A stretch of 64,000 nt of DNA from Clostridium sp. DL-VIII. Lineage in GTDB: Bacteria; Bacillota; Clostridia; Clostridiales; Clostridiaceae. The notes under the pieces are model-generated. The model was not told the origin of the DNA. It saw only the letters and a list, made by a program, of their open reading frames with translations, and searched no databases. The stretch lies in contig NZ_CM001240.1 of NCBI RefSeq assembly GCF_000230835.1, forward strand, positions 3,545,779 to 3,609,778, given 5' to 3'. The translations under genes and the position numbers were made by a program. Below, piece after piece: positions 36,383-61,483 of the stretch. Position 1 is the stretch's first letter, and the number at the start of each line of letters is the position of its first letter.

Positions 36383-37289
36383 CACGCAAATTAGCAATTC
36401 AAATGCGGACTTACTATAAAATAAAAAGGGTGGGAGTTTTGAAATATGAATTTAGATAATCCGATTTTCAAGAAGCCAATTACAGAAGTTATTAAAGCAA
36501 GAACATCTATGAGGTCATATAATGGAGTGGCTTTGGACAAAACAACAGGAGATAGCATAATAGATGTTATAAATCAGGTTAAAGCACCTTTTGGCACAAA
36601 TATACGAGTTAAGCTGATAAACTCTAAAGATTCAGATTTAAAGCTTGGAACCTATGGTGTTATAAAAGGAACTTCTACTTTCATAGTCTCATCAATTTCA
36701 AAATCAGATAATGCATTAGTTGATTTAGGATATTCATTGGAAAGAGCAGTATTGTATGCAACTGATTTAAATTTGGGTACATGTTGGCTAGGTGGTACCT
36801 TTAATAAAGGTCAATTTGCAGAGGTTATGGAGCTTAAAGATAATGAAATCCTTCCAATAGTTATACCTGTAGGGTATCCTAGTGAAGCAAGAAGAGGCAT
36901 GGATACTTTCGTTAGGTTTATGGTAGGTTCTAAAAATAGAAAAGCCTGGTCTAAACTATTCTTTGATGTAGATTTCAATACACCGTTAAAGGAGCTGGAA
37001 AGCTTAGAGTATTTTATTCCTCTTCAAATGGTAAGGCTTGCACCTTCAGCAGCAAACAAGCAACCTTGGAGAATAATTAAAAGTTCTAATTCATACGATT
37101 TTTATTTAGAACAAAGTAAAGACTCAAAAAGTGATAGTTATAATGATATGCACAAAATAGATATGGGCATAGCTATGTGTCATTTTGAGTTAACTTCAGC
37201 AGAATTAGGGTTAGAGGGGCATTGGGAGAAACTTAAGCTTTCCTCTCAAGATAATAAAAAATATATTATTTCTTGGGTTAGAAAATAGG
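36307..37289 (+). repeat. Duplicated block, copy 2
   Basis: Partner of 30344-31335. This copy keeps the intact Cys-rich gene, so it is likely the original arrangement. Confidence 0.9.
36446..37288 (+). CDS. Nitroreductase-family protein (TM1586-like), copy 2
   Basis: 280 residues, same architecture as the 30483 gene. It lacks that copy's Val-Met-Glu insertion and keeps Gly where copy 1 has Cys after Arg-Arg. GGGTGGGAG lies upstream. It follows the Cys-rich gene, with a TetR regulator divergent. Preserved reading frames in both copies suggest both are functional. Confidence 0.88.
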   Translation: MNLDNPIFKKPITEVIKARTSMRSYNGVALDKTTGDSIIDVINQVKAPFGTNIRVKLINSKDSDLKLGTYGVIKGTSTFIVSSISKSDNALVDLGYSLERAVLYATDLNLGTCWLGGTFNKGQFAEVMELKDNEILPIVIPVGYPSEARRGMDTFVRFMVGSKNRKAWSKLFFDVDFNTPLKELESLEYFIPLQMVRLAPSAANKQPWRIIKSSNSYDFYLEQSKDSKSDSYNDMHKIDMGIAMCHFELTSAELGLEGHWEKLKLSSQDNKKYIISWVRK

Positions 37290-37389
37290 GAAGGAAATTG
37301 ACTTGACGGAGCTCAAGTCCCTAAGTTTATCTAATTATATTATTCCAAATTCAAATTATTAACTTTATTAAGTCTACGTTAAACACGTT

Positions 37390-47013: not shown

Positions 47014-47055
47014 ATGGTGGATTTCAAAGGTTACGCTTCGCCGACACCAAATAAG
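47014..47055 (+). repeat. GGTGG-element, partial copy 1
   Basis: Begins GGTGGATTTCAAAGG and continues through GCTTCGCCG-ACACCA like the copies at 47767 and 60024, then diverges. The next bases form a different AAAGCC/GGCTTT hairpin. No gene is seen in 46982-47428. Confidence 0.6.
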
Positions 47056-47175
47056 AACTAGAATTTTGATACAATGCAAAGCCACTTATTTCATTGGCTT
47101 TCAGTGTCTTGTAGGACAAACTGTGGTAAAAAATTTTAAGTTTTTAGCTTAGATTTATAGAATTTTATGTTGGAC

Positions 47176-47220
47176 ATGCATACCACCGATTCTTCTTGAG
47201 TTAGGGGGTGTGCATTTTTT
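47176..47220 (+). terminator. Terminator-like hairpin
   Basis: ATGCATACCACC pairs with GGGGGTGTGCAT (one G-U and one mismatch), followed by a T-run to 47220. Confidence 0.55.
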
Positions 47221-47428
47221 GTTGGGGGGAGATCTTTTGGAAGAAATGATATTTACAAAAAATATTGTTTTAAAATGCCATTAGTATTGATCCAAAGTGA
47301 AATTTTTATTTTAAGAAGTTATATGGCAAGTTATAATTAAAATAAAAGATGATAAGTACGGATTGTATAAAATAGAGATGCAAATCGAGAATAAGATTCT
47401 AGTATTTGATATAAAGGAGTTGATTCAA

Positions 47429-47674
47429 ATGAAATGGCAAGAAGTTATAGAAATGTATCCAAATCAATTTGTTAAATTTGAAATTGTGGAATATCATGAA
47501 GATGAGAAAACTACATATGTTGATGAAGTTGCAATTATAAAAGCAATAAAAGACGGCAGAGAAGCTATGAAGGAATTTACAAAATGTAAAAATGGTCAAC
47601 TAGTGTATAGTACAGAAAATGAAAGCATTATTATAGAGAAAATTAAACATATTGGAATTAGAAGGAGTATATAA
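47429..47674 (+). CDS. Small conserved-type protein, partner of a retropepsin-like gene
   Basis: 81 residues beginning Met-Lys-Trp-Gln-Glu-Val-Ile-Glu-Met-Tyr-Pro-Asn-Gln-Phe-Val-Lys-Phe. AAGGAG at 47415-47420 selects ATG 47429 over the upstream in-frame start. Comparable small genes precede retropepsin-like proteases in clostridia, and here the stop overlaps the next start by ATGA-type coupling (47671-47674 region). Function unknown; a regulator or inhibitor of the protease is speculation. Confidence 0.6.
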   Translation: MKWQEVIEMYPNQFVKFEIVEYHEDEKTTYVDEVAIIKAIKDGREAMKEFTKCKNGQLVYSTENESIIIEKIKHIGIRRSI

Positions 47675-47766
47675 TGAAAACAAAAATACAAATAAAAAAT
47701 GGATTACTATATACTTCTATAAAATTAATACATGAAGGAAATTATGTTATTTATAATATTAGTTAA
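47674..47766 (+). pseudogene. Retropepsin-like aspartic protease, 5' fragment
   Basis: A 30-codon frame, Met-Lys-Thr-Lys-Ile-Gln-Ile-Lys-Asn-Gly-Leu-Leu-Tyr-Thr-Ser-Ile, matches the first strand of small clostridial retropepsin-like proteins, but ends before the Asp-Thr-Gly active site. The stop codon is followed directly by the GGTGG-type repeat, which appears to have cut the gene. Confidence 0.5.
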
Positions 47767-47868
47767 TAGTGAATTTCAAAGCTCATACTTCGCCTGCACC
47801 ATAAAATCCACAACCGCCTGTAGGTGGCTTAAATAGTATTTACAGGCGGTTGTGTTTTTTATTAGGGT
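47767..47868 (+). repeat. GGTGG-element, complete copy 2 with terminator
   Basis: About 100 bases: leader GTGAATTTCAAAG ... CTTCGCC-GCACC, then CACAACCGCCTGTA paired perfectly with TACAGGCGGTTGTG around GTGGCTTAAATAGTATT-type loop sequence, then TTTTTTATTA. Homologous to 60024-60127. Works as a strong terminator; the conserved leader suggests more than that. Confidence 0.75.
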
Positions 47869-47884
47869 AGCATTGCAATCAAAA

Positions 47885-47926
47885 CCACAAAAATATAACT
47901 GGCAATCAAATTTCTAGTTATATTTT
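47885..47926 (-). terminator. Terminator of the apbE gene
   Basis: AAAAATATAACT / AGTTATATTTTT, 15-nt loop, located 11 bases past the apbE stop on the minus strand. Confidence 0.75.
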
Positions 47927-47936
47927 TGATAGTGCC

Positions 47937-48875
47937 TTACATTGTTAATGGAGATATTTTTCCTATAAGATTATTTGTATAGGCTAGTTTTCCGTCCACA
48001 GTTATTACAACAGCACCCATGCCCTTAATTTTATTAACTTTATGAATAATTGAAGCAGCATCTAATCCAAACAATTTTGTAGTATATATATCGCAGTCTA
48101 GAGATTTATCAGCAATAATAGTTAAAGAAGCTATATTACTTTCTATTGGGTAGCCTGTTTTGCTGTCAAATATATGGTGGTATTTACGTCCTTCCTTTTC
48201 AAATACTCTTTCATATATTCCGGAAGTTACAACTGATTGATCTTTTATTTTGACAAGTGCCACAGCATTTCCTCTTGGTAGAAACGGATTTTGTATTCCA
48301 ACATTCCAGTTACCACCGTTTGATGGTGAGTCTCCAAAAACGAGAACATTACCTCCCATATCTACCATAGCTGAAACAGCTCCATTTTCCTTAAATAATT
48401 CCATAACTTTATCAGCAAAATAGCCCTTAGCTATGGCTCCAAGGTCTATTTCAATGCCTTTTTTTAAGAAATACACGGTCTTTTTTTCATCATTTAGTTG
48501 TATATTTTCAGGATTTAAAAGTTCCAGTACCTTTGCTATAGTTTCTTTCTCTGGTACATGTGCCTCCTTAAAACCTATTCTCCATAATTTTATTAATGGC
48601 CCTATTGCAATATTTAAATATGTATTCTCACACAGACTATGTTTTTTCCCTATTTTTATCAGCTCATATAGCTCATCATCCACTTCTTGCGGAGCTAGTG
48701 TAGCTGTTTTTTTTAGCATGGCAAGCTGTGAGTTATCACTGTTAGCACTAAAGACTTCTTCATAATTAATCAGCATATCACAAGCTTTTTCTGCAAGCTT
48801 TTCAGCAGATTCTCCCTTTATATATAGTGAGATTTTTGTTCCCATAAGATATATTATCTTCGTATACTCATTCAT
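47937..48875 (-). CDS. apbE: FAD:protein FMN transferase (ApbE)
   Basis: 312 residues, full ApbE fold: Met-Gly-Thr near the N-terminus, Asp-Leu-Gly-Ala-Ile-Ala-Lys-Gly-Tyr near 160 and Asp-Met-Gly-Gly-Asn-Val near 187. It transfers FMN from FAD onto Ser/Thr of target proteins using Mg2+. No signal peptide or lipobox, so it acts in the cytosol. The likely target is the neighbouring 50818 protein, which has an FMN-binding domain with the attachment motif. Its start overlaps the end of the LysR gene by eight bases, implying coupling. Confidence 0.9.
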   Translation of the reverse strand: MNEYTKIIYLMGTKISLYIKGESAEKLAEKACDMLINYEEVFSANSDNSQLAMLKKTATLAPQEVDDELYELIKIGKKHSLCENTYLNIAIGPLIKLWRIGFKEAHVPEKETIAKVLELLNPENIQLNDEKKTVYFLKKGIEIDLGAIAKGYFADKVMELFKENGAVSAMVDMGGNVLVFGDSPSNGGNWNVGIQNPFLPRGNAVALVKIKDQSVVTSGIYERVFEKEGRKYHHIFDSKTGYPIESNIASLTIIADKSLDCDIYTTKLFGLDAASIIHKVNKIKGMGAVVITVDGKLAYTNNLIGKISPLTM

Positions 48876-49815
48876 TTTGTTCTCCTATAGTGTAATTATT
48901 TTGTCCATGAATTAGAAATGCATCTATAAGGTCTTTATCAATATCAGTTAGTTTTTTTTCACTGTGATATGATATAAAATAATCTAAATTCAGCTCATCA
49001 ATTGGAATTTGATATATATTGTATTCAGATGGACACTCCTTTACATAGACGCTTTCTGGTATAAAGGTCAGTCCTAAATTACTCGCTGCAAGGTTACGTG
49101 CAGTATTGATTTCGGTGCTTTCCATTATGATTTTTGGTTCCACCTTATAAATGCTTAATAACTGATCTATCTGCTTTCTTATAGCAGATCCTTTGGAAGT
49201 TAGTATCAGCTTTTGAGATAATATCTTGGTTATGTCGATAGTTCCTTCTGGAATAATGGCGATGTCTTTCCGATATAAATCACAGCAGCGAGGAATAATA
49301 GCACGGTATCCGTGTCTGCCCCAAGTAATCGAGTTTAAGCTCGGAGAAATATTTCTTGAATTTTGTCCAAGCCAAAAATCCAATTCACCATTCAGAATGA
49401 GTTTCTCGTTTTTTTCTGGTAAAGCCTCTGAAAGCTCTATTCTACAGTTTGGATGTATATCCAAAAACTTTGGTAAAAAAAGAGGTAAAAGGTAGGTTCC
49501 AAGGCTAGGAAGCACTCCTATCTTTATAACCTTGCTATCTATATCAGACACAGCTGATATTTCCCTAATGAGCCTCGCATAATTATTTTCTATTGAAGTT
49601 AAATACTGATAATATATCTTCCCCTGCTCGGTTAATCTATATGGCAGCTTGTTACGACTTATAAGCTCACAGTTTAACTGACTTTCTATCCTTTTAATAC
49701 TCTGTGTCAAGTGAGGTTGAGAAATATAAAGTGATTTGGCAGCCTTGCTATAATTACTGTACTTTAAAATGGCATCAATATAATACAAAATATCCTGAGA
49801 ATAGTATTTTGACAT
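48868..49815 (-). CDS. LysR-family regulator of the flavin cassette
   Basis: 315 residues: N-terminal winged helix (Tyr-Ser-Lys-Ala-Ala-Lys-Ser-Leu-Tyr-Ile-Ser-Gln-Pro-His-Leu-Thr-Gln-Ser-Ile) and a two-lobed effector domain. It overlaps apbE and is divergent from the reductase genes at 50204, the classic LysR arrangement. The intergenic region now holds an IS605-like end, which may have moved or split its binding site. The effector is unknown; a fumarate- or urocanate-like acid would fit the reductase. Confidence 0.88.
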   Translation of the reverse strand: MSKYYSQDILYYIDAILKYSNYSKAAKSLYISQPHLTQSIKRIESQLNCELISRNKLPYRLTEQGKIYYQYLTSIENNYARLIREISAVSDIDSKVIKIGVLPSLGTYLLPLFLPKFLDIHPNCRIELSEALPEKNEKLILNGELDFWLGQNSRNISPSLNSITWGRHGYRAIIPRCCDLYRKDIAIIPEGTIDITKILSQKLILTSKGSAIRKQIDQLLSIYKVEPKIIMESTEINTARNLAASNLGLTFIPESVYVKECPSEYNIYQIPIDELNLDYFISYHSEKKLTDIDKDLIDAFLIHGQNNYTIGEQNE

Positions 49816-49853
49816 TTAATTCATCCTTTTGTGAAATATTTAGGCATATGAAA

Positions 49854-49914
49854 ATAAATAACGAGTCCAAAATAGCCTTGCAAGTGGACTTGTTATTTAT
49901 GTGATAGTGCCTTA
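49854..49914. other. Hairpin plus TGATAGTGCCTTA 13-mer
   Basis: ATAAATAACGAGTCCA pairs with TGGACTTGTTATTTAT (one wobble). The 13-mer TGATAGTGCCTTA at 49902-49914 is identical to 47926-47938 at the apbE terminator; in both cases a hairpin precedes it on the plus strand. Confidence 0.5.
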
Positions 49915-50071
49915 ACTCATTTATCTGATGTCTAGCCACTGTAATACCCCCACTTCTTTAAACGGGGATAACAGTGGCACGACCCTAGACGAGGTACCCC
50001 TTGAGGGTATAAGTTCAACTAAGATTCAGATGGAGATCAAACTCCACCTGAATCAAGTTTCACTTGATTCT
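49915..50071 (-). mobile_element. Solitary IS200/IS605-like right end (omega-RNA-like), second copy
   Basis: On the minus strand this repeats the 25797-25945 element: CAAGTGAAACTTGATTC, GAATCTTAGTTGAACTTAT, CTAGGGTCGTGCC, AAAGAAGTGGGGGTATTAC-type hairpin and GGCTAGACATCAGATAAAT. It carries an extra hairpin insertion ACCCTCAAGGGGT. No tnpA or tnpB remains. It occupies the divergent promoter region of the LysR and reductase genes. Guide-RNA capacity is inferred from family knowledge only. Confidence 0.6.
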
Positions 50072-50203
50072 TGTGTTCGATTATAACAAATATGTTATCA
50101 AACTTCAATAAATAACTATTAGATATAATATACTTAACATGTTAAAATTATATCAAACAATTACTAATATTATGAAATTTTGAAATACAGAAAGGGGATT
50201 ACT

Positions 50204-50803
50204 ATGAAGTATTTAGCAATTGTAGGCACTAACTCAGACGTGTCAACTAATCGTATGCTGCTTCAATTTATGCAAAAGCATTTTTCGAGTGAGGCAGAGA
50301 TAGAACTATATGAAATTAAGGATTTACCTGCCTTTAATGAACCAGAGGATTCTGATGTTCCTGAAAAGGTAGCAGAATTATCAGATAAAATTTTAAAAGC
50401 AAATGGAGTAATAATAGCAACTCCAGAGTATGATCATGCCATACCTGCGGTTTTAAAGAGTGCTCTTGAATGGATTAGTTACACTAGTCAGGCACTTACT
50501 GACAAGCCTGTTTTAATAGTGGGGGCTTCTCTTGGTACACTTGGTTCTTCTCGTGCACAGGCACATCTTAGACAAATACTTGATTCACCTGAGCTTGCTG
50601 CTAGAATCATGCCAAGCAGTGAATTCCTTTTAGGAAAATCACAAGGGGCATTTGATAGCGAAGGAAATCTTATCTATTCAGATAAGCTATCAGAACTTGA
50701 TGAAATTTTTAGAGAGTTTCTTTTATTTACAGATATTACATCAAAACTTTTAGCAGAAAAAGTTTTACATAAAAAAGTTAAAAAATTCACATGGCAAGAG
50801 TAG
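50204..50803 (+). CDS. NAD(P)H-dependent FMN reductase
   Basis: 199 residues, FMN_red flavodoxin-like fold: Ile-Val-Gly-Thr-Asn-Ser-Asp phosphate loop at the N-terminus, Thr-Pro-Glu-Tyr-Asp-His-Ala-Ile-Pro near 79 and [13 protein letters not shown] near 110. AAAGGGG places the start at ATG 50204, not at the upstream TTG 50180. It supplies reduced FMN. It is 15 bases ahead of the larger gene, whose first domain is its paralogue. Confidence 0.88.
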
Positions 50804-50817
50804 GAGGATTAATATCA

Positions 50818-53241
50818 ATGAAATTTATAGCAATTGTTGGAACTAGTGCAAAAAGATCATATAATCGTAAACTACTTCAGTTTATGAAAAAATACTTTGA
50901 GTCGAAGGCAGAAATAGAAATACTTGAGATTACAGATGTTCCTATGTTTAATCAATCTGATAATCAGTCCTCAAGTGAAGTTATACAGATGTTCAATAAT
51001 AAGATTACAGCAAGTGATGGTGTTATTATAGCTACTCCTGAGTATAATCACTCAATCCCATCTAGTCTTAAAAGCTTAATTGAATGGCTAAGCTTTGATC
51101 TTCATCCACTTGCTGGCAAACCAGTAATGATCCTTGGTGCTTCTCTTGATAGTCAAGGTTCTTCTCGTGCACAACTACATCTTCGTCAAATCCTAGATGC
51201 ACCAGGTGTTGATGCAAATGTAATGCCAGGATATGAGTTTTTACTTGGAAGTGCAAATAAAGCATTTGATGAGGAAGGTAATCTAAACAATGAAAGAACT
51301 ATAGACTTCTTAGAAATATGCTTCCTACGTTTTATGCGTTTTGCAAATATTTCAAATCAACTTAACGAAGAAGAAGAGTTTACCTTTAACCCAGGAGTAT
51401 ATGAGGTAGATGCAATAGGTCACAGCGGAAGCCTTCCAATGAAAGTATCCTTTAGTGAAGACAGAATAGAAAGTATAGATATAAATACAGATGGCGAGAC
51501 AGAAGGACTTGCAGATGTAGTTTTTGTAAGAATACCAGATAAAATAATTGAAGGACAGACATTAAATGTTGATGCTCTTTCTGGTGCTTCCGAAACTAGT
51601 AATGCTGTATTAGACGGTGTAGCTAAAGCAGTTAAGCTTGCAGGAGTTAACCCTGACATACTTAAGAGACGTCCAAAGCCTGCTAGCAGTCTTATAAAAG
51701 AAGACGAAGAATATACTTGTGATGTAGTAGTTGTAGGCGGAGGCGGCGCTGGATTAAGTGCAGCTGCAACAGCGCTGCAAAATGGCAAAAGTGCTATTGT
51801 TCTTGAAAAATACCCAGCAGTAGGTGGAAATACCATACGTTCAGGTGGTCCTGTCAATGCTGCAGATCCAGAGTGGCAGATGCAGTTTGAAGAAAATAAA
51901 GGAGAAAGACATACAATTGAAGAACTACTAGATACAGATGAGAGCTTAATTCATCCAGAATACATAGATGATTTCCGTGCACTTAGAAAAGAGTTTTCAG
52001 AGTACAAGAAAAAGTTTGAAACACAAAAAGGACATCTGTTTGATTCGCCATTACTTCACAGAATGCAAACATATTTTGGTGGTAAAAGAACTGACCTTAA
52101 TGGTAACACAATATACGGCCAATATGACCTAGTAAAGATACTTACAGACAGAGCTTTAGAAAGTGTTAAATGGCTAGAAGATATAGGGGTTGAGTATGAT
52201 AAGAGCATAGTATTTGCTCCAGTTGGTGCACTTTGGCGTCGTGGTCATAAGCCTACAAAAAGCCATGGTTCATCATTTATACTTGCACTAACAAAATATG
52301 TACAAGATAACTCAGGAAAAATCATTACTGATAGTCCGGTAAAAGAATTTATCATAGAAGATGGTGAAATAAAAGGAGTTATAGCAACTGGTGTCAATGG
52401 CCAAAAGATAACTGTTCATGCAAAAGCAGTAGTCCTTGCAAGTGGTGGTTTTGGTGCAAACACAAAGATGCTGAAAGAATATAACACTTACTGGAATGAA
52501 ATAGCTGATGATATAAAAACTACAAATTCATATGCTATGACTGGTGATGGAATAGTACTTGGTAAAACTGTAGGTGCAGCACTTACAGGAATGGGCTTTA
52601 CTCAAATGATGCCTGTAGCTGATCCTGAAACTGGTGAATTATTCAGTGGAGTTCAAGTACCTCCTGAAAACTTTGTAATGGTAAATAAAGAAGGAAAAAG
52701 ATTTATTAATGAATTCTCTGGAAGAGATGTATTAACAAAAGCTGCAATTGAACAGGGTGGTTTATTCTACCTTATTGCTGATGATGAAATAAAGAAAACT
52801 GCAGCTAATACAAGTCAAGAAAAGCTAGACCGTCAAGTAGAAGCTGGTACTTTATTTAGAGCAGATACCCTAGAAGAGCTAGCAGTAAAAGTTGGAATGG
52901 ATCCTGCAGTTCTTGTAGACACTATTAATAAATATAATTCATATGTGGATGCTGGTTTTGATCCTGAATTCCATAAGGATACATTTAGCTTAAAAGTAGA
53001 GAAAGCACCGTTTTATGCTACTCCAAGAAAGCCAGCAGTTCATCATACAATGGGTGGGCTTAAGATAGACACTAAAGCTCATGTATTAGATGAAAATGAT
53101 AAACCAATTAAAAATCTTTATGCTGCTGGAGAAGTTGCTGGAGGTATCCATGCAGGTAACCGTCTTGGCGGTAATGCATTAACTGATATATTTACCTTCG
53201 GAAGAATTGCTGGTAAAACTGCAATTGATGAAATGAAATAG
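50818..53241 (+). CDS. Three-domain flavoprotein reductase: FMN reductase + FMN-binding + fumarate/urocanate-reductase-like FAD domain
   Basis: 807 residues. Residues 1-180 repeat the FMN_red fold of the preceding gene. Residues 190-285 are an FMN-binding domain with Asp252-Ala-Leu-Ser-Gly-Ala-Ser258, fitting the ApbE motif Asp-x-x-Ser/Thr-Gly-Ala-Ser/Thr, so Ser258 is the likely FMN-ester site. Residues 300-807 are a flavocytochrome-c-type FAD reductase: Gly-Gly-Gly-Gly-Ala-Gly 307-312, and the substrate/proton residues in His-His-Thr-Met-Gly-Gly and Gly-Asn-Arg-Leu-Gly-Gly-Asn. The chain NAD(P)H to FMN to bound FMN to FAD to an enoate is inferred. No signal peptide, so cytosolic. AGGAGG precedes ATG 50818. 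Confidence 0.92.
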
Positions 53242-53260
53242 TTAATCTTAACCCAATAAT

Positions 53261-53305
53261 AAATCATCTATTGATAAAATGAATTTTATCAATAGATGAT
53301 TTTTT
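53261..53305 (+). terminator. Very strong terminator after the flavin reductase
   Basis: 19-base perfect stem AAATCATCTATTGATAAAA / TTTTATCAATAGATGATTT, 4-nt loop, T-run. Confidence 0.92.
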
Positions 53306-53314
53306 GGCTTTCAA

Positions 53315-53381
53315 ACATATCCACTGGTGAAAATTTAAACCTTCGGGATCAGTGAAAGAATAAAGTTAACTAATCTTTAGA
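53315..53381 (+). repeat. ACATATCCACTGGT repeat, copy 2
   Basis: ACATATCCACTGGTGAAAA, TTTAAA-CTTCGGGAT, GAATAAAGTTAA and TAATCTTTAGA are shared in the same order with 55541-55623. It starts ten bases after the terminator. The rest of 53382-53583 has no gene. Confidence 0.7.
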
Positions 53382-53583
53382 AAATCCTTTGAAATATAAC
53401 AAGGTATTCTTTAAAAGTTATGTTTATTATTAGAATATAGCCGGTAAAAATAAGATTTTTAGAAGAAAAGATGGCATGGTATTTATATGATTGTAGAATA
53501 TCTATGATTTATTAAGAAACTAATACATAATTCTTTAAAACTGATCATATTTTTATCACAATATTTTAATAAAGGAGGATATC

Positions 53584-53979
53584 ATGAAATTAAATTCTTA
53601 TCAAAAATCTTTTGTATGCATTATACTTTTTGGATTAATTACATTATTATCATGTTACACAGTTATAAAAGAAAATAATAAAACAACATCAATAACTAGG
53701 CGTATGAGTACAAATAGAGAATGGACAGATTCTTCAAAAATTCCTTATACAACTACTTTTAATCAAGGAGATATTATACGATTTAATTATAAATCAACTA
53801 TTAAAGATGGAAAATTATCGCTAAGATTTGTTGATTCTCAAGGAAACTTAATTTATGAGTTTGATCCAGGGGAAAAGGGAGAAAAGGATATAAAAATAGA
53901 GAAAACCGACATATATGAGCTTTTTATAGAAGGAGATAAATTTGAAGGAAATTACGAGATAATATGTAAAAAATCTTGA
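53584..53979 (+). CDS. Small secreted lipoprotein, unknown
   Basis: 131 residues. Basic start, hydrophobic helix (residues 10-23) ending Ile-Thr-Leu-Leu-Ser-Cys24, a good lipobox, so it should be lipidated and anchored outside the membrane. The rest is polar with beta strands (Ile-Ile-Arg-Phe-Asn-Tyr-Lys-Ser; Leu-Ser-Leu-Arg-Phe-Val-Asp-Ser), like small jelly-roll or Ig-like stress lipoproteins. AAAGGAGGATATC precedes ATG 53584. Confidence 0.7.
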   Translation: MKLNSYQKSFVCIILFGLITLLSCYTVIKENNKTTSITRRMSTNREWTDSSKIPYTTTFNQGDIIRFNYKSTIKDGKLSLRFVDSQGNLIYEFDPGEKGEKDIKIEKTDIYELFIEGDKFEGNYEIICKKS

Positions 53980-54103
53980 ATAATAAAGTAGCAGCTTAGA
54001 ATCTGTTGCGGCAGCACCTGTTGACTTAAATTTAATTTATATATAAAATCAAATTTGTACTTAAGAATTAGCTTTATTTTATATACAGGGGAGATAGAAT
54101 TAT

Positions 54104-55423
54104 TTGAAGAAAAAGAATGATTATAATAAACAAATAAAAAATGGAAAAGAAAATACAGGTAAATGCATTGAGATGAAAAAGTGCAATGAAGAGGAAAAAG
54201 AAAATAATAAATGCAAAAACTGTGGAGAACAAGCAAGTTATTTTAGTGATGAAAATAATGGTTGGCTATGTGAGGATTGCAGGAGCATAGAAGATGGGTT
54301 AGATAAACTTGCTGATAAAATAGAGAAAAAGCTAAGCAAAAGAGTTTATTCTTTTGATTTAAATGAATTAATAAATTGTTTATCTAAAGATGAAATATAT
54401 AATATAGCAAGAAATCTTGGAGTAAATAAGATATCAGGTTTAAATAAAGAAAAATTGATTGAAACATTACTTAAAGAATATAAGAATTTGGTTGAAAAAA
54501 GAGCTTTACTCTTTGAAGAAGAAAGATATAAGATTTTAAGAAGTTATGTGGATAGCAAAGGTGTAAAACTTTTTGATGATATTGATGAAGAGGAAGCAGA
54601 TAAGAGCGTATATTTTATACAGCAAGGAATGCTCTTTCCAATTGTAAAAGATGGGATATCGATATTTTTAATGCCTGAAATAGTACAAGGATTAATCAAA
54701 GAAAGAAATAATATTGAATATAGACGTTTAATAAAATTCAATAGTGAAATTGTAAATATCTTTAGGGCAATGAATAAAGTATATGGTATTTTAAAACTAA
54801 AAGATGCTAAAGAGATAATAGAAAGATATTTGAATATAGAAAATTGTGAATTAGAAGAGTTAATTAGAGAGGCAACATATTACTACAATGAATATAGAGA
54901 AGAAGGAATGTTTATTGTTAATAATGAAATAGATAATTTTGGTGAACTATTAAAGGATATAGATACAGAAAAAGATTTAAGTTATGCCATGATTTCAAAA
55001 GAAGAATTATTAAATATGTTAGAAGAAAATTGGGTTTATAATAGTAAAGCAGGAAAAACTTTTTATAAAGAGTTTACTAATATGTTTAGGGTAGATAGAG
55101 ACATGTTAATAGCTATGATGGAAGACTTGATTTTTGATGTTCAAGAAAATGAACCTAAAGATGCAGTAGATAAAATGATAGAATTAATTAATATTGAAAA
55201 TGAAGAAGCCAGATACGTTGCATCTAGTATGATGAATAAATTTGTTAAGAAAATTAGGTTATGGAGATATAAGGGTTCAACCACTAATGATATTAAATCA
55301 AATGTAGTTAGCTTAAAGGCAAATAAGGATATAAAAAGAAATGATCCTTGTCCATGTGGTAGTGGGAAAAAATATAAAAAGTGTTGCGGTGAAGATGAGA
55401 AGGTTATTTATTTATTAGAATAA
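54104..55423 (+). CDS. SEC-C motif protein with N-terminal zinc ribbon
   Basis: 439 residues. Residues 37-59 carry Cys-Lys-Asn-Cys ... Cys-Glu-Asp-Cys (zinc ribbon); residues 80-130 look like a SAP/Rho-N-type helical domain; the middle is all-helical; the C-terminus has the SEC-C motif Asp-Pro-Cys-Pro-Cys-Gly-Ser-Gly-Lys-Lys-Tyr-Lys-Lys-Cys-Cys. SEC-C zinc hooks bind ribosome/SecB-type partners in SecA and appear in many accessory proteins. TTG 54104 is the start, with AGGGGAG about 11 bases upstream; a shorter start at ATG 54174 is possible. Function unknown. Confidence 0.78.
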   Translation: MKKKNDYNKQIKNGKENTGKCIEMKKCNEEEKENNKCKNCGEQASYFSDENNGWLCEDCRSIEDGLDKLADKIEKKLSKRVYSFDLNELINCLSKDEIYNIARNLGVNKISGLNKEKLIETLLKEYKNLVEKRALLFEEERYKILRSYVDSKGVKLFDDIDEEEADKSVYFIQQGMLFPIVKDGISIFLMPEIVQGLIKERNNIEYRRLIKFNSEIVNIFRAMNKVYGILKLKDAKEIIERYLNIENCELEELIREATYYYNEYREEGMFIVNNEIDNFGELLKDIDTEKDLSYAMISKEELLNMLEENWVYNSKAGKTFYKEFTNMFRVDRDMLIAMMEDLIFDVQENEPKDAVDKMIELINIENEEARYVASSMMNKFVKKIRLWRYKGSTTNDIKSNVVSLKANKDIKRNDPCPCGSGKKYKKCCGEDEKVIYLLE

Positions 55424-55436
55424 TTATTAGATTACT

Positions 55437-55525
55437 TTAATTAAGGAACCAGAAATAAAATAACAAGTTAAGTATACAAAATGTACAAGTATATTAGTTA
55501 TTTTTTTGACGGTTCCTTATTAATT
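55437..55525 (+). repeat. Long imperfect hairpin after the SEC-C gene
   Basis: TTAATTAAGGAACC and GGTTCCTTATTAA form outer arms about 60 bases apart, with AAATAAAATAAC / GTTATTTTTTT inside. It may be a terminator or a small MITE-like palindrome; the ACATATCCACTGGT repeat begins 16 bases later. Confidence 0.55.
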
Positions 55526-55540
55526 TTATTTTGCCTTGAA

Positions 55541-55872
55541 ACATATCCACTGGTGAAAATTTAAATCTTCGGGATATCTAGCTTAATAGTGGAAGAATAA
55601 AGTTAAGTTAAATAATCTTTAGATTAATCATGGAATTAGCATGTAAAGGTAGAATTACCTCTCTACACAGTAATTTAAAGAAATGGATGAATAGGTTTAA
55701 TGGTGTTGCAACAAAATATATCAACAACTATATTAAGTGGTTCAAATGGCTTCAAATATTTGATACAGATAAAGAAATAATAAAGGCTAAAAACTTTATA
55801 GTTCAAAGCAATGTGGTATATTCATATACCAAAGTAAAAGATTTAAAAAATAGAGAACCAATGTATGTGTGA
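55541..55872 (+). mobile_element. IS1595-family (ISXO2-like) transposase C-terminal remnant with ACATATCCACTGGT repeat
   Basis: 55541-55623 is the repeat shared with 53315. From 55630 a frame encodes Leu-His-Ser-Asn-Leu-Lys-Lys-Trp-Met-Asn-Arg-Phe-Asn-Gly-Val-Ala-Thr-Lys-Tyr and Asn-Tyr-Ile-Lys-Trp-Phe, the conserved C-terminal end of ISXO2-like transposases. The N-terminal two thirds with most of the DDE residues are missing. The repeat may therefore be sequence belonging to this IS. Confidence 0.7.
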
Positions 55873-55994
55873 TATTTTGTAAATTATGTTATAATAAGTA
55901 TTATACAGGACTATAATCTAATGAACAATAGTTAGAAAAGACGAATAACTAAAATAGAAATGTTATAGAGCAAAAAACTAAAAGGGAGGGTAAA

Positions 55995-56513
55995 ATGAAT
56001 GCATTTTTGACAGTAATACCACTAATACTTATTAGGTATGGGATTTTAAGTATAATAGACAAAGAATCACTTAAACGTGCAGGTTTCTTTGCTCCATTAA
56101 TCGGAAGAGAAAAAGTAGCATTCTGGGTTTATCAAATTACAACCGTCCTTATTTTACTATACCTATTATTACTCAAAATCAAAACTGACTCTGATTGGTT
56201 TTACATAGGTTTAGGAGTATATAGTTTAGGAATTATTTTATATGCTGTATCTATAGTAAATTATGCTAAGCCTAAAATGAATGGAATAAATTTAAATGGA
56301 TTATACCGAGTATCCCGCAATCCTATGTACATTGCATATTTTATTTATTTTTTAGGGTGTGCATTGCTAACACATTCCTTGATATTACTTGCGTTATTAA
56401 TCTGTTTTCAAGTAGCCGCACACTGGATTATTCTTTCAGAAGAAAGATGGTGTATTAAGAAATTCGGAGAAGAATATATAAAATATATGAATAAAGTGAG
56501 ACGTTATATTTAG
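55995..56513 (+). CDS. Isoprenylcysteine carboxyl methyltransferase-like membrane protein
   Basis: 172 residues with four to five membrane helices and the C-terminal ICMT/PEMT signature: Gly-Leu-Tyr-Arg-Val-Ser-Arg-Asn-Pro-Met-Tyr-Ile-Ala-Tyr, then Glu-Glu-Arg-Trp-Cys-Ile-Lys-Lys-Phe-Gly-Glu-Glu-Tyr. It likely methylates a lipid or small hydrophobic substrate with SAM at the membrane. GGGAGGGTAAA precedes ATG 55995. Confidence 0.85.
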   Translation: MNAFLTVIPLILIRYGILSIIDKESLKRAGFFAPLIGREKVAFWVYQITTVLILLYLLLLKIKTDSDWFYIGLGVYSLGIILYAVSIVNYAKPKMNGINLNGLYRVSRNPMYIAYFIYFLGCALLTHSLILLALLICFQVAAHWIILSEERWCIKKFGEEYIKYMNKVRRYI

Positions 56514-56604
56514 ACAGTTATGCTATAACTCTATTATTCAAGTTATGGTTTGTGATTATTCACCAAGGAGAATAATTGCAATGTAATAAGTTCCAACATT
56601 GAGC

Positions 56605-56636
56605 ATTATAGGTGGACAATCCACCTATAATTTTTT
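56605..56636 (+). terminator. Intrinsic terminator
   Basis: ATTATAGGTGG / CCACCTATAAT, 5-nt loop, T-run. Confidence 0.85.
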
Positions 56637-56805
56637 AAGGCTATATTTCAACATTATATTAAAACATATCCTAACAGAAAAGGAAAAAGATTTCGACAAT
56701 GTTTTATATGCAATGAGAATATGGGGAGAGAAGTGACTCTTGCCATATGCTTAAATGGGCTTGTAGCTAGTTTAGAATGCAATATTCTTAAATTCAATCC
56801 CTAAA

Positions 56806-56840
56806 AACACATTATTCTAAATGAATGATGTGTTTTTTTA
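56806..56840 (+). terminator. Second terminator, orphan
   Basis: AACACATTATTC / GAATGATGTGTT with one wobble and a T-run. The 56640-56800 stretch between terminators has no recognisable gene; a small RNA is possible. Confidence 0.75.
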
Positions 56841-56939
56841 TACCATAAATGAAATTTTACAATAAGAATATCATTTTGACATAAAGTAAAATAACTCAAT
56901 TATATATATACTAATGCTTTAGAATGAGGGATGATATTA

Positions 56940-57299
56940 ATGAAATTAAAACTAGTAACGATGATAATAAACAAACTTATATTTATTGCTGGCATAATTG
57001 GGTTTATAACTATACTTTTTAATGTGAGATTATCTGTAAAAATGGAGACAATACTTTCAATATTTTTAATTATTGGTAGTATGTCAGAGTTTATAGAGAC
57101 TCGAAAATTTAGAAAGTTAATTTATCCATTAATTATAATTTACTTTCTAATATTACTACCTATTATAGAAAATTTTATTTACAATAGGTTTTTATATATT
57201 GGAGTAGTTGTACTAAGTATTATTAGTGCTTTGATGATCCTATGTAATGAAGTGATAAATACTATCAAAGAAAAAAATACTAGGCTAAATAATAAATGA
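56940..57299 (+). CDS. Small polytopic membrane protein, unknown
   Basis: 119 residues, four hydrophobic helices (about 8-30, 38-52, 62-80, 83-103), charged tail. GAGGGATG places the start at ATG 56940 rather than the upstream in-frame ATT/ATG at 56931. No family recognised. Confidence 0.6.
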   Translation: MKLKLVTMIINKLIFIAGIIGFITILFNVRLSVKMETILSIFLIIGSMSEFIETRKFRKLIYPLIIIYFLILLPIIENFIYNRFLYIGVVVLSIISALMILCNEVINTIKEKNTRLNNK

Positions 57300-57340
57300 T
57301 AAATTCTAAACGAATTTTCAAGAAAGGATGGCGGATAATT

Positions 57341-57439
57341 TGGCACGACCATCAAAAAGTGTTGAAGTTATGAGTAGGAATCTTATAAAAGTAATTTCTA
57401 AAATTTCATTTTACAGATTTTTTGCATGTAGGATTTAAT
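57341..57439 (+). pseudogene. N-terminal scrap of a phage P27-type terminase small subunit
   Basis: TTG 57341 follows AAAGGATGG and encodes Leu/Met-Ala-Arg-Pro-Ser-Lys-Ser-Val-Glu-Val-Met-Ser-Arg-Asn-Leu, the characteristic start of P27 small terminases. It then degenerates and stops after 32 codons. No other phage structural gene remains here. The rest of 57440-57657 shows nothing. Confidence 0.5.
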
Positions 57440-57657
57440 AACGTCAATCTTAATGAAGAGCCACTAATATTTAATTTTAAAAGTTAAGTGATTCTTAAAG
57501 AAAAAATAAAATTTCAAGATATTATTCATTATAATTGCTCCTTTTATTTTATTGTGATAAAATTATCGCGTACCTGAATAATAATTTATTACAAATATTT
57601 TTACGAGTACAATTATTTTAATACATAGTATCTTAAAAGATACCAAGGAGTGTAAGC

Positions 57658-58266
57658 ATGGAAGAAAACTTAAGCTTAGAAAATTTAAATGCAGAAGAAA
57701 TATGGGAAAAGTTATATAAGAAAGAATTAAATTGTAAGAAGAACATTTTAGAATATATTGATATTGCTAAGATACTAAAAAAGGGTGAGGCTGACCCAGA
57801 AAAGATTCAAGATACTTATAATTTTATCTATGATAATATTGAGAAGATGTCAGATAAAGTTAAACCGAATACTGTTATGTATCTTCAAAATGAATTAAAA
57901 AATCAGTTTGGCAAATATGTAGTTGAAAAGGAGCCTAAAGAAGAAGATGCCTTTATAAAATTCTTTAAGGAGGCATACCCTGTAAAAGATAGAAGAAAAG
58001 ATTTCACTTGGGTTATGATGAATATTAACAACATAGTAGAAGAACAAATTTGGACTACATTAATTCACATTAACAGAGAATATATATGTCAAAGAATTAA
58101 ATTAGAAGCTGAAGAAAAAGAAGCTATAATTAAAATGATAAAAAAGGTAATTGAAAAAAATAATAAAAAATATATTAATCAAATAAAAAGTTTGGATAAA
58201 TTATTAAATAATTTAAATATTAAAATAATAAATGACAAGGATAAATTCAAGGTTAAAAAATTATAA
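57658..58266 (+). CDS. Helical protein of unknown function
   Basis: 202 residues, Lys/Glu/Asn-rich, predicted all-helical, no membrane segment, no clear motif. AAGGAGTGTAAGC lies before ATG 57658. The C-terminal third (Ile-Lys-Met-Ile-Lys-Lys-Val-Ile-Glu-Lys) could be a coiled coil. I do not recognise it. Confidence 0.6.
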   Translation: MEENLSLENLNAEEIWEKLYKKELNCKKNILEYIDIAKILKKGEADPEKIQDTYNFIYDNIEKMSDKVKPNTVMYLQNELKNQFGKYVVEKEPKEEDAFIKFFKEAYPVKDRRKDFTWVMMNINNIVEEQIWTTLIHINREYICQRIKLEAEEKEAIIKMIKKVIEKNNKKYINQIKSLDKLLNNLNIKIINDKDKFKVKKL

Positions 58267-58500
58267 TTATGAACCATCAAATAGATAATAATAAAATTAT
58301 TACAGAAGTCCATTGAAAATTAATTGCTGATGGATTTCTTATTTTTTCATAAGAAGATTTAATAAATTCAATTCCAACTAGTAAAACTAAAAAGGAAACT
58401 ATTAGGCCAGAAATGTATTCAATGTTTTATAGATTGCTGGAGGATTTAAGCATCATTATGATAATAAAATAATCATTTGTATTTTTAAATGTAAAAAATA

Positions 58501-58529
58501 TTGACAAAATTCCGTGAAAATAATATACT
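58501..58529 (+). promoter_or_regulatory. Promoter of the amt transcript
   Basis: TTGACA 58501-58506, 17-base spacer, TATACT 58524-58529. The start would fall near 58537, just before the leader hairpin. Confidence 0.75.
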
Positions 58530-58539
58530 ATGAAATAAG

Positions 58540-58597
58540 AACGACGATGTTCGACAAACATACTTAAAAAAGTATATTTTTCGGACGTCGTTTTTTT
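58540..58597 (+). terminator. Leader terminator/attenuator ahead of amt
   Basis: AACGACG (58540-58546) pairs with CGTCGTT (58586-58592), with inner CGA/TCG and AACATACTT/AAGTATATT pairing and a seven-T run. It lies between a strong promoter and the amt start, about 120 bases before it, so premature termination in the 5' UTR is likely. The control factor is not identifiable; ANTAR-type antitermination is known for clostridial nitrogen genes, but the expected hexaloops were not seen. Confidence 0.6.
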
Positions 58598-58714
58598 ATA
58601 CAAAAAAATAGGACATTATAATTAGTTGAGAAAAAGAATTCAAAAATTAAAAAAACTTATACATAAATAGCTGAAATTTTGTTTTGAGATTTAATATACT
58701 AAGGAGGATTTTAT

Positions 58715-59959
58715 ATGGAAATTAATTTAGGCGATAGCAGTTTTATGTTGATTTGTTCAGCACTTGTACTTTTAATGACACCAGGACTTGCATTTTTTTA
58801 TGGTGGAATGGTTCGTAGGAAAAATGTTTTAAATACATTGATGTCTTCCTTCTTTATTTGTGGATTAGCATCAATAATGTGGGTTTTAGTAGGTTATTCA
58901 TTGTCTTTTGGTAATGATTTTCATGGGATAATAGGTGGACTTAATTTCTTAGGTTTTAATGGGGTAGGAGCAGAGCCTTCAGCATATGCACCTACAATAC
59001 CTCAAGAACTTTTTGCTGCATTTCAAATGATGTTTGCAATAATTACTCCAGCGCTTATAACTGGAGCTTTAGTAGAAAGAATGAAGTTTTCAGCATTGTT
59101 CATATTTGTAGCTATATGGTCACTTTTAGTATATTATCCAATGGCACATATGGTATGGGGAGCTGGTGGATTAATAAGTTCTTTAGGTGCCGTTGATTTT
59201 GCTGGAGGAAATGTAGTTCATATAAGCTCAGGTATTTCAGGCCTTGTAGCTTGTATTATGTTAGGTAAGAGACGTGGACATGGAATGATGTCATATAGAC
59301 CACATAATATTCCATTTGTAGTTCTTGGAGTAGCATTACTTTGGTTTGGATGGTTTGGATTTAATGCAGGTAGTGCGCTCGGAGCTGGTCCACTTGCTGT
59401 ACATGCATTCATGACAACAAATACTGCAGCATCAGCAGCTATGCTTTCATGGATGTTAATTGAAAAAGTTAAACATGGTAAGCCAACATTACTTGGAGCA
59501 GCAACAGGAGCAGTATTAGGGTTAGTTGCAATTACACCAGGAGCAGGGTTTGTTCCACTTTGGTCATCAATTATAATTGGTATAGCAGTATCTCCAATTT
59601 ATTTCTTCTTTGTGGAAAAAGTAAAAGTTAAGTTTGGATATGATGATGCACTTGATGCTTTTGGATGTCATGGAATCGGAGGAATTTGGGGTGGTATTGC
59701 AACTGGAATTTTTGGACAAACTGCAATTAATCCTGTAGCACAATGGAATGGTCTTTTCTATGGAGATGTTAAACTTTTCATTGCACAAATAATGAGTATT
59801 GTAATAACAATAATATTTGCAGGTGGCATGACTTTCTTAATTATAAAAGTTATGAAAATGTTTATGGATATTAGAGTTGATAGCTCAGAAGAAGCTGATG
59901 GACTTGATGTAGCTGAACATGGGGAATCTGCTTATCCAGCATTTAACGGATTAGACTAG
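58715..59959 (+). CDS. amt: Ammonium transporter (Amt)
   Basis: 414 residues, eleven membrane helices. Twin His169 (Asn-Val-Val-His-Ile-Ser-Ser-Gly) and His319 (Asp-Ala-Phe-Gly-Cys-His-Gly-Ile-Gly-Gly) line the pore, and the start Met-Thr-Pro-Gly-Leu-Ala-Phe-Phe-Tyr-Gly-Gly-Met-Val-Arg is conserved. It imports ammonium. AAGGAGG precedes ATG 58715. No glnB/glnK PII gene follows, which is unusual; instead a two-hairpin repeat element ends the transcript. Confidence 0.94.
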   Translation: MEINLGDSSFMLICSALVLLMTPGLAFFYGGMVRRKNVLNTLMSSFFICGLASIMWVLVGYSLSFGNDFHGIIGGLNFLGFNGVGAEPSAYAPTIPQELFAAFQMMFAIITPALITGALVERMKFSALFIFVAIWSLLVYYPMAHMVWGAGGLISSLGAVDFAGGNVVHISSGISGLVACIMLGKRRGHGMMSYRPHNIPFVVLGVALLWFGWFGFNAGSALGAGPLAVHAFMTTNTAASAAMLSWMLIEKVKHGKPTLLGAATGAVLGLVAITPGAGFVPLWSSIIIGIAVSPIYFFFVEKVKVKFGYDDALDAFGCHGIGGIWGGIATGIFGQTAINPVAQWNGLFYGDVKLFIAQIMSIVITIIFAGGMTFLIIKVMKMFMDIRVDSSEEADGLDVAEHGESAYPAFNGLD

Positions 59960-60023
59960 GAATATAATGCATGAATGCATAAAATGGAGAAAGTATAATA
60001 TTAAAAAATAGAATTAAAAAATT

Positions 60024-60127
60024 CTATGGTGGATTTCAAAGGTCGTGCTTTGCCGCCACCATGAAACCCACGACCATTTGTATGTGGCTTAAATAGTTTG
60101 CTTACAGGTGGTCGTGGGTTTTTATTA
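60024..60127 (+). repeat. GGTGG-element, complete copy 3 with terminator
   Basis: GGTGGATTTCAAAGG ... GCTTTGCC-GCCACC folds by GGTGG/CCACC and CAAAG/CTTTG pairing. Then AACCCACGACCA pairs with TGGTCGTGGGTT around the conserved GTGGCTTAAATAGT, followed by TTTTTATTA. Compared with copy 2, the stem bases change on both sides, keeping pairing. It is the likely terminator of amt. Nothing else is seen in 60128-60342. Confidence 0.75.
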
Positions 60128-60342: not shown

Positions 60343-61386
60343 ATGATTTCTTTTGAAAATAATAAATTGAATAACTTAACATTACCTATGAGCATAGTTA
60401 GAATGTTAACTACTATAAATGAATATAAAGGGAAGCAAGATTTGTATAAAAAGCAATCACCTCAAATATTAAATACACTTAAAGATGTGGCAATTATACA
60501 AAGTGCGGAATCATCTAATAGAATAGAAGGTATTTATACTTCAAATAAAAGATTACGTGAAATAATGGATAATAAAATAGAACCAAGAGATAGAAGTGAA
60601 AGTGAGATAGCTGGGTATAGAGATGTATTAAATACTATTCATAGTGCTTTTGATGCTATACCTATAAAATCATCTGTGTTATTACAACTACATAGAGATT
60701 TGTACAAATTTTCATCAGCAAAGGGAGGAAACTATAAAAATACTGATAATGTAATTGAAGAAATATTACCTAATGGAACCAAATACATAAGATTTAAGCC
60801 TGTAGATTCCTTTAGTACTCCAAACTATATGGAGAGACTTTGCGAAGAATATAGAAAGGAAATTGCAAAAGAAGAAGTAGAGCCATTAGTTTTAATAGGG
60901 GCATTTATATTAGATTTTCTTTGTATCCATCCTTTTAATGATGGAAATGGAAGAATGTCTAGATTATTAACACTTTTACTTTTGTACCAAAGTGGCTTTG
61001 AAGTTGGAAGATTTATTAGTTTAGAAAAAATTATTGAGGATAGTAAAGAAACTTATTATGAGGCACTGAATAAAGCATCTATGCTATGGCATGATGGAAA
61101 AAATAATTTGCAAATATGGCTTGAGTACTTTCTTGGAGTTACCATAAAAGCATATAAGGAATTAGAGGACAGAGTAGGTTGTATTGAAAATACTAAGGGT
61201 AGTAAGAGTGACAGAATAGAAATGGCTATAGAAGGAAAGTTAGGGTATTTTACGAAGGATGAAATAAGAACTATATGCCCTGATGTAGGAGAAGCTACTA
61301 TAAATAGAGTGTTTGAGAGGATGAAAGTTGGAGGAAAGATAGAAGTTATAGGCAAAGGAAGAAATGCTAAATGGAAAAAATCATAA
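60343..61386 (+). CDS. Fic-domain AMP-transferase with self-inhibitory motif
   Basis: 347 residues. The Fic motif His196-Pro-Phe-Asn-Asp-Gly-Asn-Gly-Arg204 is complete. The N-terminal Ser58-x-x-x-Glu62-Gly63 is the class II inhibitory helix motif, so the enzyme should be autoinhibited until released. A C-terminal winged-helix-like segment (about 285-347) follows. It would AMPylate Tyr/Thr/Ser on target proteins. GAGGGAG precedes ATG 60343. It is separated from the prophage-like genes by a terminator and may be accessory cargo or a neighbouring host gene. Confidence 0.9.
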   Translation: MISFENNKLNNLTLPMSIVRMLTTINEYKGKQDLYKKQSPQILNTLKDVAIIQSAESSNRIEGIYTSNKRLREIMDNKIEPRDRSESEIAGYRDVLNTIHSAFDAIPIKSSVLLQLHRDLYKFSSAKGGNYKNTDNVIEEILPNGTKYIRFKPVDSFSTPNYMERLCEEYRKEIAKEEVEPLVLIGAFILDFLCIHPFNDGNGRMSRLLTLLLLYQSGFEVGRFISLEKIIEDSKETYYEALNKASMLWHDGKNNLQIWLEYFLGVTIKAYKELEDRVGCIENTKGSKSDRIEMAIEGKLGYFTKDEIRTICPDVGEATINRVFERMKVGGKIEVIGKGRNAKWKKS

Positions 61387-61444
61387 TAAAAAATCTTGAC
61401 TAGCTAGTTAAATTGTATCAAAATTTAGCCTAATCATCTCATGA

Positions 61445-61483
61445 AACCCGCAAAATCTAAAGTTTGGATTTTTGCGGGTTGTT
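61445..61483. terminator. Terminator after the fic gene
   Basis: AACCCGCAAAA pairs with TTTTGCGGGTT around a 14-nt loop; T-rich tail GTTGTTAATT. Confidence 0.75.

Follow-up and report, generated by a model that had tools for sequence, protein, structure and literature searches.

The window analysed here, a stretch of 64,000 nucleotides (nt) from Clostridium sp. DL-VIII (contig NZ_CM001240.1, positions 3,545,779 to 3,609,778), contains three copies of a short intergenic repeat, which the original prediction had presented as a dispersed two-hairpin element with two complete copies and a partial one. The three copies do exist (47768-47868, 60028-60127 and a third at 47016), and each of them looks like a recombination junction in which a conserved cassette end is joined to a copy of the tail and terminator of ssrA, the transfer-messenger RNA (tmRNA) gene. 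All lie on the forward strand. Junction 1 (47016-47049) is composed of an arm (47016-47038) and a copy of the ssrA 3′ end (CGCCGACACCA, 47039-47049, with two changes), followed by a type C right half, i.e., an ssrA terminator region (47050-47105); the supposedly partial copy is thus a full junction with another ssrA terminator. Junction 2 (47768-47801) joins its arm (47768-47790) to CGCCTGCACCA (47791-47801) and is followed by a type A ssrA terminator (47809-47860) with a long hairpin, the loop GGTGGCTTAAATAGT and a T-run. Junction 3 (60028-60061) shows the same organization, with an arm (60028-60050), the ssrA 3′-end copy TGCCGCCACCA (60051-60061) and a type A ssrA terminator (60063-60124). 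With R1, a 34-nt sequence model of the junction, the three junctions displayed E-values of 2.5e-8 (in G000, the genome of the window), 4.0e-7 and 7.8e-9, respectively.

The 752-bp segment from junction 1 to junction 2 (47039-47791) has a single open reading frame (ORF) of at least 80 amino acids (aa), a 103-aa ORF (47363-47674, forward strand) without a Pfam match, and it occurs a second time in G030 (88%), where it starts at a junction. It is followed by a cassette (47791-53249) that codes for ApbE (47937-48875) and a LysR regulator (48868-49815) on the reverse strand and for an NADPH-dependent FMN reductase (50180-50803) and an FAD/FMN flavoprotein (50791-53241) on the forward strand; this block is also part of the G069 ssrA array, where a junction borders it on one side and a right half whose arm has decayed on the other, and of one segment of the G068 array. 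A further segment (53250-60027) contains a SEC-C protein, a phospholipid methyltransferase family protein, a 202-aa protein and an ammonium transporter; no junction was seen near window position 53250, and positions 57479-58271 recur in the G069 ssrA array. The segment behind junction 3 carries a Fic-domain protein (60343-61386, forward strand; best PADLOC model SoFic), and a remnant of a type B right half (an ssrA terminator) with a decayed core lies at 61440-61480 on the forward strand. Upstream of junction 1, a hydrolase segment, longer in G041 than in the window, is adjoined by a DDE transposase (PF01609; 45504-46394, reverse strand). Note that ARAGORN detected neither a tmRNA nor a tRNA in the window.

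The ssrA origin of the junctions was indicated by a BLAST search of 59 genomes with the window copy that starts at 60028 as query, which retrieved many copies grouped in clusters, and in which one match extended into the 3′ end of the tmRNA gene in G041 (C. beijerinckii HUN142). The first 23 nt of the junction, GGTGGATTTCAAAGGTCACGCTT, form the conserved cassette end and are followed by 11 nt, CGCCTCCACCA, that correspond to the ssrA 3′ terminus. The left half AGTGGATTTCAAAGGTCACGCTT displayed 90% mean column identity over 40 ungapped aligned sites and is absent from the ssrA ends compared, which include a set of 25 rows representing 23 distinct ssrA genes (22 of 30 ssrA loci met the pattern, which itself demanded a CGCCNCCACCA end). 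The right halves fall into at least three types, all placed after the same left half: type A, with the loop GTGGCTTAAATAGY, stands behind the ssrA of G060, G080 and G072; type B, CCCACGAAAATC..GATTTTCGTGGG, behind that of G041, G028 and others; and type C, AATAAGAACTAGAATTTTGATACAATG, behind that of G067 and G037. Counted from and including their own core, the window copies match these ssrA flanks at 60 of 66 positions (60051, compared to G080), 54 of 66 (47791, G060) and 56 of 66 (47039, G067). In addition, type A right halves often run on into a second, decayed type B right half ~83 nt further.

Two other observations on arms and ssrA ends were made. A second arm type, AGTGCAGGGGTTAGTTACGCTT, occurs twice in the 2.31 Mb cluster of G069 (L170, 9563; L171, 8160), upstream of the same ssrA-derived core. 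Moreover, the ssrA genes of G007, G018, G023, G034 and G039 give a short match to the tmRNA model, with the CGCCTCCACCA end ~300 nt further downstream (similarly in L217, L223 and L225), as if an intron-like insert had split the T arm; a group I intron has been described in tmRNA genes of Clostridium.

Our results on RNA structure separate the two hairpins. The long second hairpin stands as described: the two whole copies fold with z-scores of −5.38 and −6.52 (none of 200 shuffles was as good), and in an alignment of 36 hand-picked type A copies, its 20-pair stem is formed in 95.7% of cells, with nine pairs changed on both sides compared to 3.0 in shuffles (0 of 500). These compensatory changes consequently belong to ssrA terminators. 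For the leader hairpin, in contrast, the 40 aligned copies (36 distinct) were 78.3% paired versus 77.7% in shuffles (a value reached by 64 of 500), with two double-changed pairs versus 1.2 (172 of 500), so its covariation does not exceed chance. Versions shifted by 1-3 columns pair less well (24-50%). In 20 of the 36 distinct rows, the outermost pair of the leader hairpin is lacking, and, taken alone, this hairpin beats shuffles at 60028 (z −2.84) and not at 47016 (z −0.03). As an RNA structure, it is not supported, since it shows no covariation beyond shuffles and the 47768 copy folds without it; from the sequence, its GTGG/CCAC complementarity may instead reflect recombinase half-sites. Selection on RNA structure, as originally proposed, consequently applies to hairpin 2, with its compensatory changes and its ssrA terminator nature, and is not supported for hairpin 1.

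A set of conserved intrinsic terminators or small RNAs, kept by structural selection and without any role in mobility, would account for the true compensatory changes of hairpin 2 and for the T-run at its end. We nevertheless regard it as improbable in the extreme, since descent from ssrA terminators explains these changes, hairpin 1 lacks covariation, no Rfam family matches the copies at gathering scores, and the ends of homology blocks coincide with the copies. Likewise, the notion of a small-RNA family does not fit halves that come from different sources, with at least three right-half types on one left half and a first hairpin without covariation. Over the window, Rfam (release 15, gathering scores) identified only two T-boxes, none of them at the copies; the comparison thus gave no family for the element, and yet the latter holds the 3′ end of a known RNA gene.

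On the scale of the genus, the junction was found in 33 of 68 Clostridium genomes (R1, E-value up to 0.01 per genome), a count in which the weakest single matches may be due to chance and from which stricter filters may lose weak sites. The copies are clustered rather than evenly spread, contrary to the term ‘dispersed’. Downstream of ssrA and on its strand, G069 has at least 15 listed junctions in ~133 kb (17 in a further count), G068 has 11 in ~66 kb, G000 has seven in ~82 kb and G041 has five in the 35 kb read. Among the 78 above-threshold junctions of 15 arrays, which were assembled from fetched stretches, none lies on the opposite strand (i.e., the arrays are head-to-tail) and none falls inside an ORF of at least 150 aa, although such ORFs represent 72% of the array DNA; the median of 63 junction spacings is 4.9 kb (quartiles 3.3 and 10.2). 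When 20 genomes, partly chosen for having sites, were read over at least 9 kb behind ssrA, 11 of them displayed a window-type junction within 15 kb. Outside these collections, an exact pattern retrieved 31 stretches from GTDB representatives, all but three titled Clostridium; the remaining three correspond to a metagenome-assembled genome titled Bacillota bacterium (two matches) and to Inconstantimicrobium porci (one). The plasmid collection gave no match to the element, and IMG/VR viral contigs gave none to the one exact pattern used for a free phage attachment site (attP); therefore, no phage or circular form was found.

Intergenic location, short size and repetition, together with single copies far from ssrA, are also what one would observe for a non-autonomous mobile element of ~100 bp, comparable to miniature inverted-repeat transposable elements (MITEs) or repetitive extragenic palindromic (REP) sequences, that carries an ssrA-derived terminator and inserts as a whole downstream of genes. 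This explanation appears very improbable in light of several results. Indeed, the halves combine freely, one arm being found with terminator types A, B and C; the right halves are those of ssrA itself; and the orientation is the same for 78 of 78 copies in the 15 arrays. Furthermore, a MITE or an insertion sequence end would be a short unit moving alone between two conserved flanks, whereas at 60051 the left flank is common with G041 and the right one is not, and homology generally runs into the adjoining genes, ending at the next junction in the case of the duplicated G041 cassette described below.

The two-hairpin element is thus not supported as the moving unit. Since the halves are of different origin and the similarity between loci extends beyond the junction into adjacent genes, the moving unit is, as judged from the sequences, the segment between two junctions. 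The idea of a mobile terminator holds insofar as mobile cassettes carry the terminator along at their end, and not as a free-standing mobile unit. As an example, one 3.4-kb cassette with three genes (a MarR-type regulator, an FMN reductase and a 400-aa hydrolase-fold protein) occurs twice in G041, one copy belonging to the ssrA array and the other to the window-orthologous cluster; the two are 93.4% identical over 3,396 bp, and their homology breaks off inside the junctions, ~30 nt ahead of the cores and 22 nt past them. At junction 60051, the window and G041 align across the left half and into the terminator, where the alignment stops, and no further match was present downstream within the 38 kb fetched. 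Of 160 homology-block ends compared across 14 arrays, 11 were located no more than 40 nt from a core in both partners, versus 0.022 expected, a value to be taken as a guide only, as it assumes independent ends and ignores shared junction sequence and orthologous pairs (the other 149 ends show no such coincidence). In one segment of the G008 array, a perfect tandem duplication of 1,821 bp was also noted (L061, 9818-11638 and 11630-13450).

Altogether, the copies are very probably attR-like junctions resulting from the site-specific integration of small mobile cassettes at the 3′ end of ssrA or into a junction already present, most likely by an ssrA-specific large serine recombinase. The junction anatomy, the ssrA-derived right halves, the orientation of the arrays, the cassette boundaries, the duplicated cassette, and the recombinase and its fragments near junctions are observed in the sequences; we infer the chemistry, the identity of the enzyme, its action in trans and the circular intermediates. 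A cassette circle, whose site would combine the arm, an ssrA 3′ end and a terminator, would recombine with ssrA: the recombinase would connect the GGTGGATTTCAAAGG-bearing site with the 3′ end of ssrA, the exchange falling inside TCGCCTCCACCA. The tmRNA gene would be rebuilt from the cassette's own 3′-end copy and terminator, while the old ssrA 3′ end and terminator would be displaced to the far side and fused to the conserved arm of the cassette. Because the cassette brings its own ssrA 3′ end and terminator, the tmRNA would remain intact and properly terminated. Successive integrations would build head-to-tail arrays of operon cassettes, mostly without a recombinase, the latter acting in cis when encoded and in trans afterwards; with time, the recombinase would decay, as in the arrays of G000, G041, G068 and G069, and the cargo and junctions would persist.

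The enzyme that makes the junctions is most likely, from sequence comparison, an ssrA-specific large serine recombinase of the G003/G008/G042 subclade. A scan for the Resolvase domain led to serine recombinases that abut ssrA, in antiparallel orientation in G008, G034 and G059, and that also abut it in G063. When the genus was searched with the G034 protein, a clade with at least 48% identity separated from the rest (at most 35%), except for one C-terminal fragment in G026. Within this clade, the proteins associated with the window-type arm (G003, G042 and one of the two in G008) share 73-86% identity, and the recombinase lies upstream of a window-type junction, intact at 1.3 kb in G003 and at 9.5 kb in G008 and decayed at ~3 kb in G042. 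Relatives with other known arms are 48-66% identical to the G003 protein: the G064 and G026 recombinases (95% identical to each other) share 63-71% with the window-arm subclade and have a different arm, and the ssrA-abutting type of G008, G059 and G034 shares 45-51% and has a third arm. The G003 protein has the domain set of a large serine integrase (Resolvase, Recombinase and zinc-ribbon), and its PDB relatives include the phage A118 integrase. Moreover, in genomes that lack an intact member of the subclade, fragments of it with 46-76% identity were found behind junctions or ssrA at distances of up to 2.5 kb, namely in G000 (~115 nt, at 1.607 Mb), G068 (~130 nt), G069 (two, at 1.4-2.4 and 1.5 kb), G075 (two, at ~120 nt and 1.1 kb) and G090 (~250 nt behind ssrA). 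Among the window proteins scanned, no such recombinase gene was seen.

Two other arrangements at ssrA were noted. At the ssrA of G026, an ssrA-abutting serine recombinase is represented by a stretch of 72 C-terminal residues (L292, 6016-6231, forward strand) that shares 90% identity with the G034 protein, and its remainder was not seen there. In G008 (L190-L191) and G059 (L201-L203), elements of ~38 kb occupy ssrA, with a serine recombinase on the ssrA side and a tyrosine recombinase close to the opposite end, and these recombinases are 99-100% identical between the two genomes.

Integration at the 3′ end of tRNA and tmRNA genes is usually catalysed by tyrosine integrases, as stated in PMC4383910, and the junctions could accordingly have been made by an ssrA-specific tyrosine integrase encoded elsewhere. 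The shared block extends to the CCA end of ssrA, G008 and G059 each have a tyrosine recombinase ~1 kb ahead of an ssrA-type core whose arm is different, and G037 has a tyrosine recombinase remnant ~3 kb from two sites, all of which would fit such an enzyme. We consider it unlikely, since no Phage_integrase match was found inside the G000 ssrA array and a comparison by eye of nine genomes revealed no regular tyrosine recombinase neighbour of the junctions, whereas the serine recombinase subclade tracks the arm type and its fragments sit behind junctions.

It should be noted that several observations weigh against integration at ssrA by this serine recombinase. Regarding the position of the junctions, the first window-type junction occurs only 23-67 kb behind ssrA in G008, G034, G059 and G064, and none was found in the stretch read behind ssrA in G026, G029, G035, G037 and G063 (G035, G037 and G029 have junctions elsewhere in the genome). 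The window cluster itself is ~2 Mb from the ssrA of its own genome, and the G000 sites at 2.54, 1.61 and 3.16 Mb are likewise remote. Two window segments are found in the same order within the G069 ssrA array, and it is therefore possible that the window cluster was displaced by an inversion or translocation of part of the ssrA array; alternatively, it may result from a secondary integration. Regarding the arrays, the expected polarity, with the newest cassettes nearest to ssrA, is clear in only two of five: the chronological order is clear in G000 and G041, and not in G068 and G069, and in G008 the DNA nearest to ssrA is common to another genome, probably G059. Both right halves at 60051 are of type A, i.e., there is a boundary without a change of type, and homologous recombination from one junction to another is a further possible source of duplicated or moved cassettes. 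Regarding the enzyme, a matching arm goes with just two intact recombinases and one decayed copy, and no intact subclade recombinase was found in G000, G041, G068 or G069. Only seven of the 13 places with fragments (in 20 genomes) are close to a junction or ssrA, the other six (G060, G037, G041, G072, G090 and G029) being at least 4 kb away or on contigs without a listed site. Finally, the DNA conserved to the right of the core across types is shorter than expected for the attP half-site of a serine integrase.

The closest known system is represented by the ssrA-specific genomic islands of Dehalococcoides. In McMurdie et al. (2011, PMC3146451), these islands are arranged in tandem behind ssrA, with a 20-nt 3′-end repeat, a conserved motif just upstream of the repeat and reductive dehalogenase cargo; some islands have a large serine recombinase next to one end, the integration module is lacking in 15 of 31, and no duplicate islands are reported within a strain. 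The Clostridium arrays follow a similar logic. The order behind ssrA and on its strand is seen in the arrays of G000, G041, G068 and G069 and in 11 of the 20 genomes read, and not for the window cluster itself, and a recombinase near a junction is seen intact in G003, decayed in G042 and as fragments in G000, G068, G069, G075 and G090. A copy of the ssrA 3′ end is found at the end of the Clostridium segments, as in ssrA-specific islands, and an element-specific motif is present immediately upstream of the repeat, with a sequence unlike the Dehalococcoides motif. In contrast to what is described there, the Clostridium segments are small (median as given above) and mostly without a recombinase, the repeat is ~12 nt instead of 20, the junctions each carry one of several ssrA terminators, further clusters lie megabases from ssrA, the same cassette occurs twice in one genome, and the cargo includes genes for sugar, vitamin and redox functions and for defence in place of the reductive dehalogenases. 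The titles from a literature search, which covered few of the subscription journals, included no report of such arrays in Clostridium.

Other systems display only part of these features. In enterobacteria, ‘Traffic at the tmRNA gene’ (Williams 2003) reportedly involves a variety of elements that occupy ssrA, the formation of arrays and, for each attachment site, a restricted choice of terminator-like sequences, and these elements are said to be large and to have tyrosine integrases. SCC/Ccr cassettes use a large serine recombinase for insertion at the end of one conserved gene; the likeness concerns the general recombinase architecture, whereas the Clostridium target is ssrA and the Clostridium junction carries a terminator. 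Integrons have one anchor site, head-to-tail attC cassettes with a common junction and a recombinase able to act in trans, and by analogy the Clostridium arrays would work alike. They differ in that a Phage_integrase match, and hence the tyrosine integrase (IntI) that stands beside an integron array, is absent from the G000 ssrA array, in that the segments are operons with their own regulators, and in that the junctions are ssrA 3′ ends with terminators. We put forward, only tentatively, that many Clostridium genomes possess a serine-recombinase counterpart of the integron. In such a system, ssrA would be the single anchor and the 34-nt junction the cassette site, each cassette would be a complete self-regulated operon with a replacement tmRNA terminator, and orphan cassettes would be moved in trans by occasional visiting recombinase-bearing elements, which would result in a library of exchangeable operons, the order of which would in part reflect how they were acquired over time.

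The proposed integration at ssrA would account for a family of intergenic ‘two-hairpin’ repeats, and would extend the Dehalococcoides-type arrangement to Clostridium, with smaller segments that are mostly without a recombinase. The junctions would give the boundaries of mobile operon cassettes, so that accessory pathways and defence genes could be located by means of junctions, and the proposal names a testable pair of recombinase and site, which might serve for operon insertion at ssrA. Many segments resemble self-contained operons with their own regulators and with metabolic or defence-like functions (cargo names are matches to profile libraries, for the part of the ORFs that was scanned). 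In G069, the cargo includes BioB, BioD and BioA above curated cut-offs, behind a BioY-like ORF itself without a match; a malic enzyme with a KdgT-like transporter and a MalK/DcuS-like kinase, as well as a phosphotransferase system (PTS) permease with a glycosidase, for both of which the best models are clear and below the NCBIfam curated cut-offs; IclR with KDPG aldolase, MFS and a small AAA protein; and LacI with a solute-binding protein and an alpha-amylase family enzyme. Defence-like cargo comprises GmrSD_N with an AAA protein and NsnC (PADLOC NsnA and NsnC, the AAA protein being nearer to PtuA models than to NsnB), a TOTE-type primase-helicase-PLD protein, McrBC in G000 and SoFic in the window; in G068, an Mrr-type nuclease is located in the segment adjoining ssrA and a LeoA/LeoBC-like pair in the next one.

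Elsewhere in the window, the two T-box leaders above the Rfam gathering score are located at 1656-1947 (forward strand) and 10253-10508 (reverse strand), and a direct repeat of ~1 kb, 94.9% identical, occupies positions 30344-31339 and 36307-37293.

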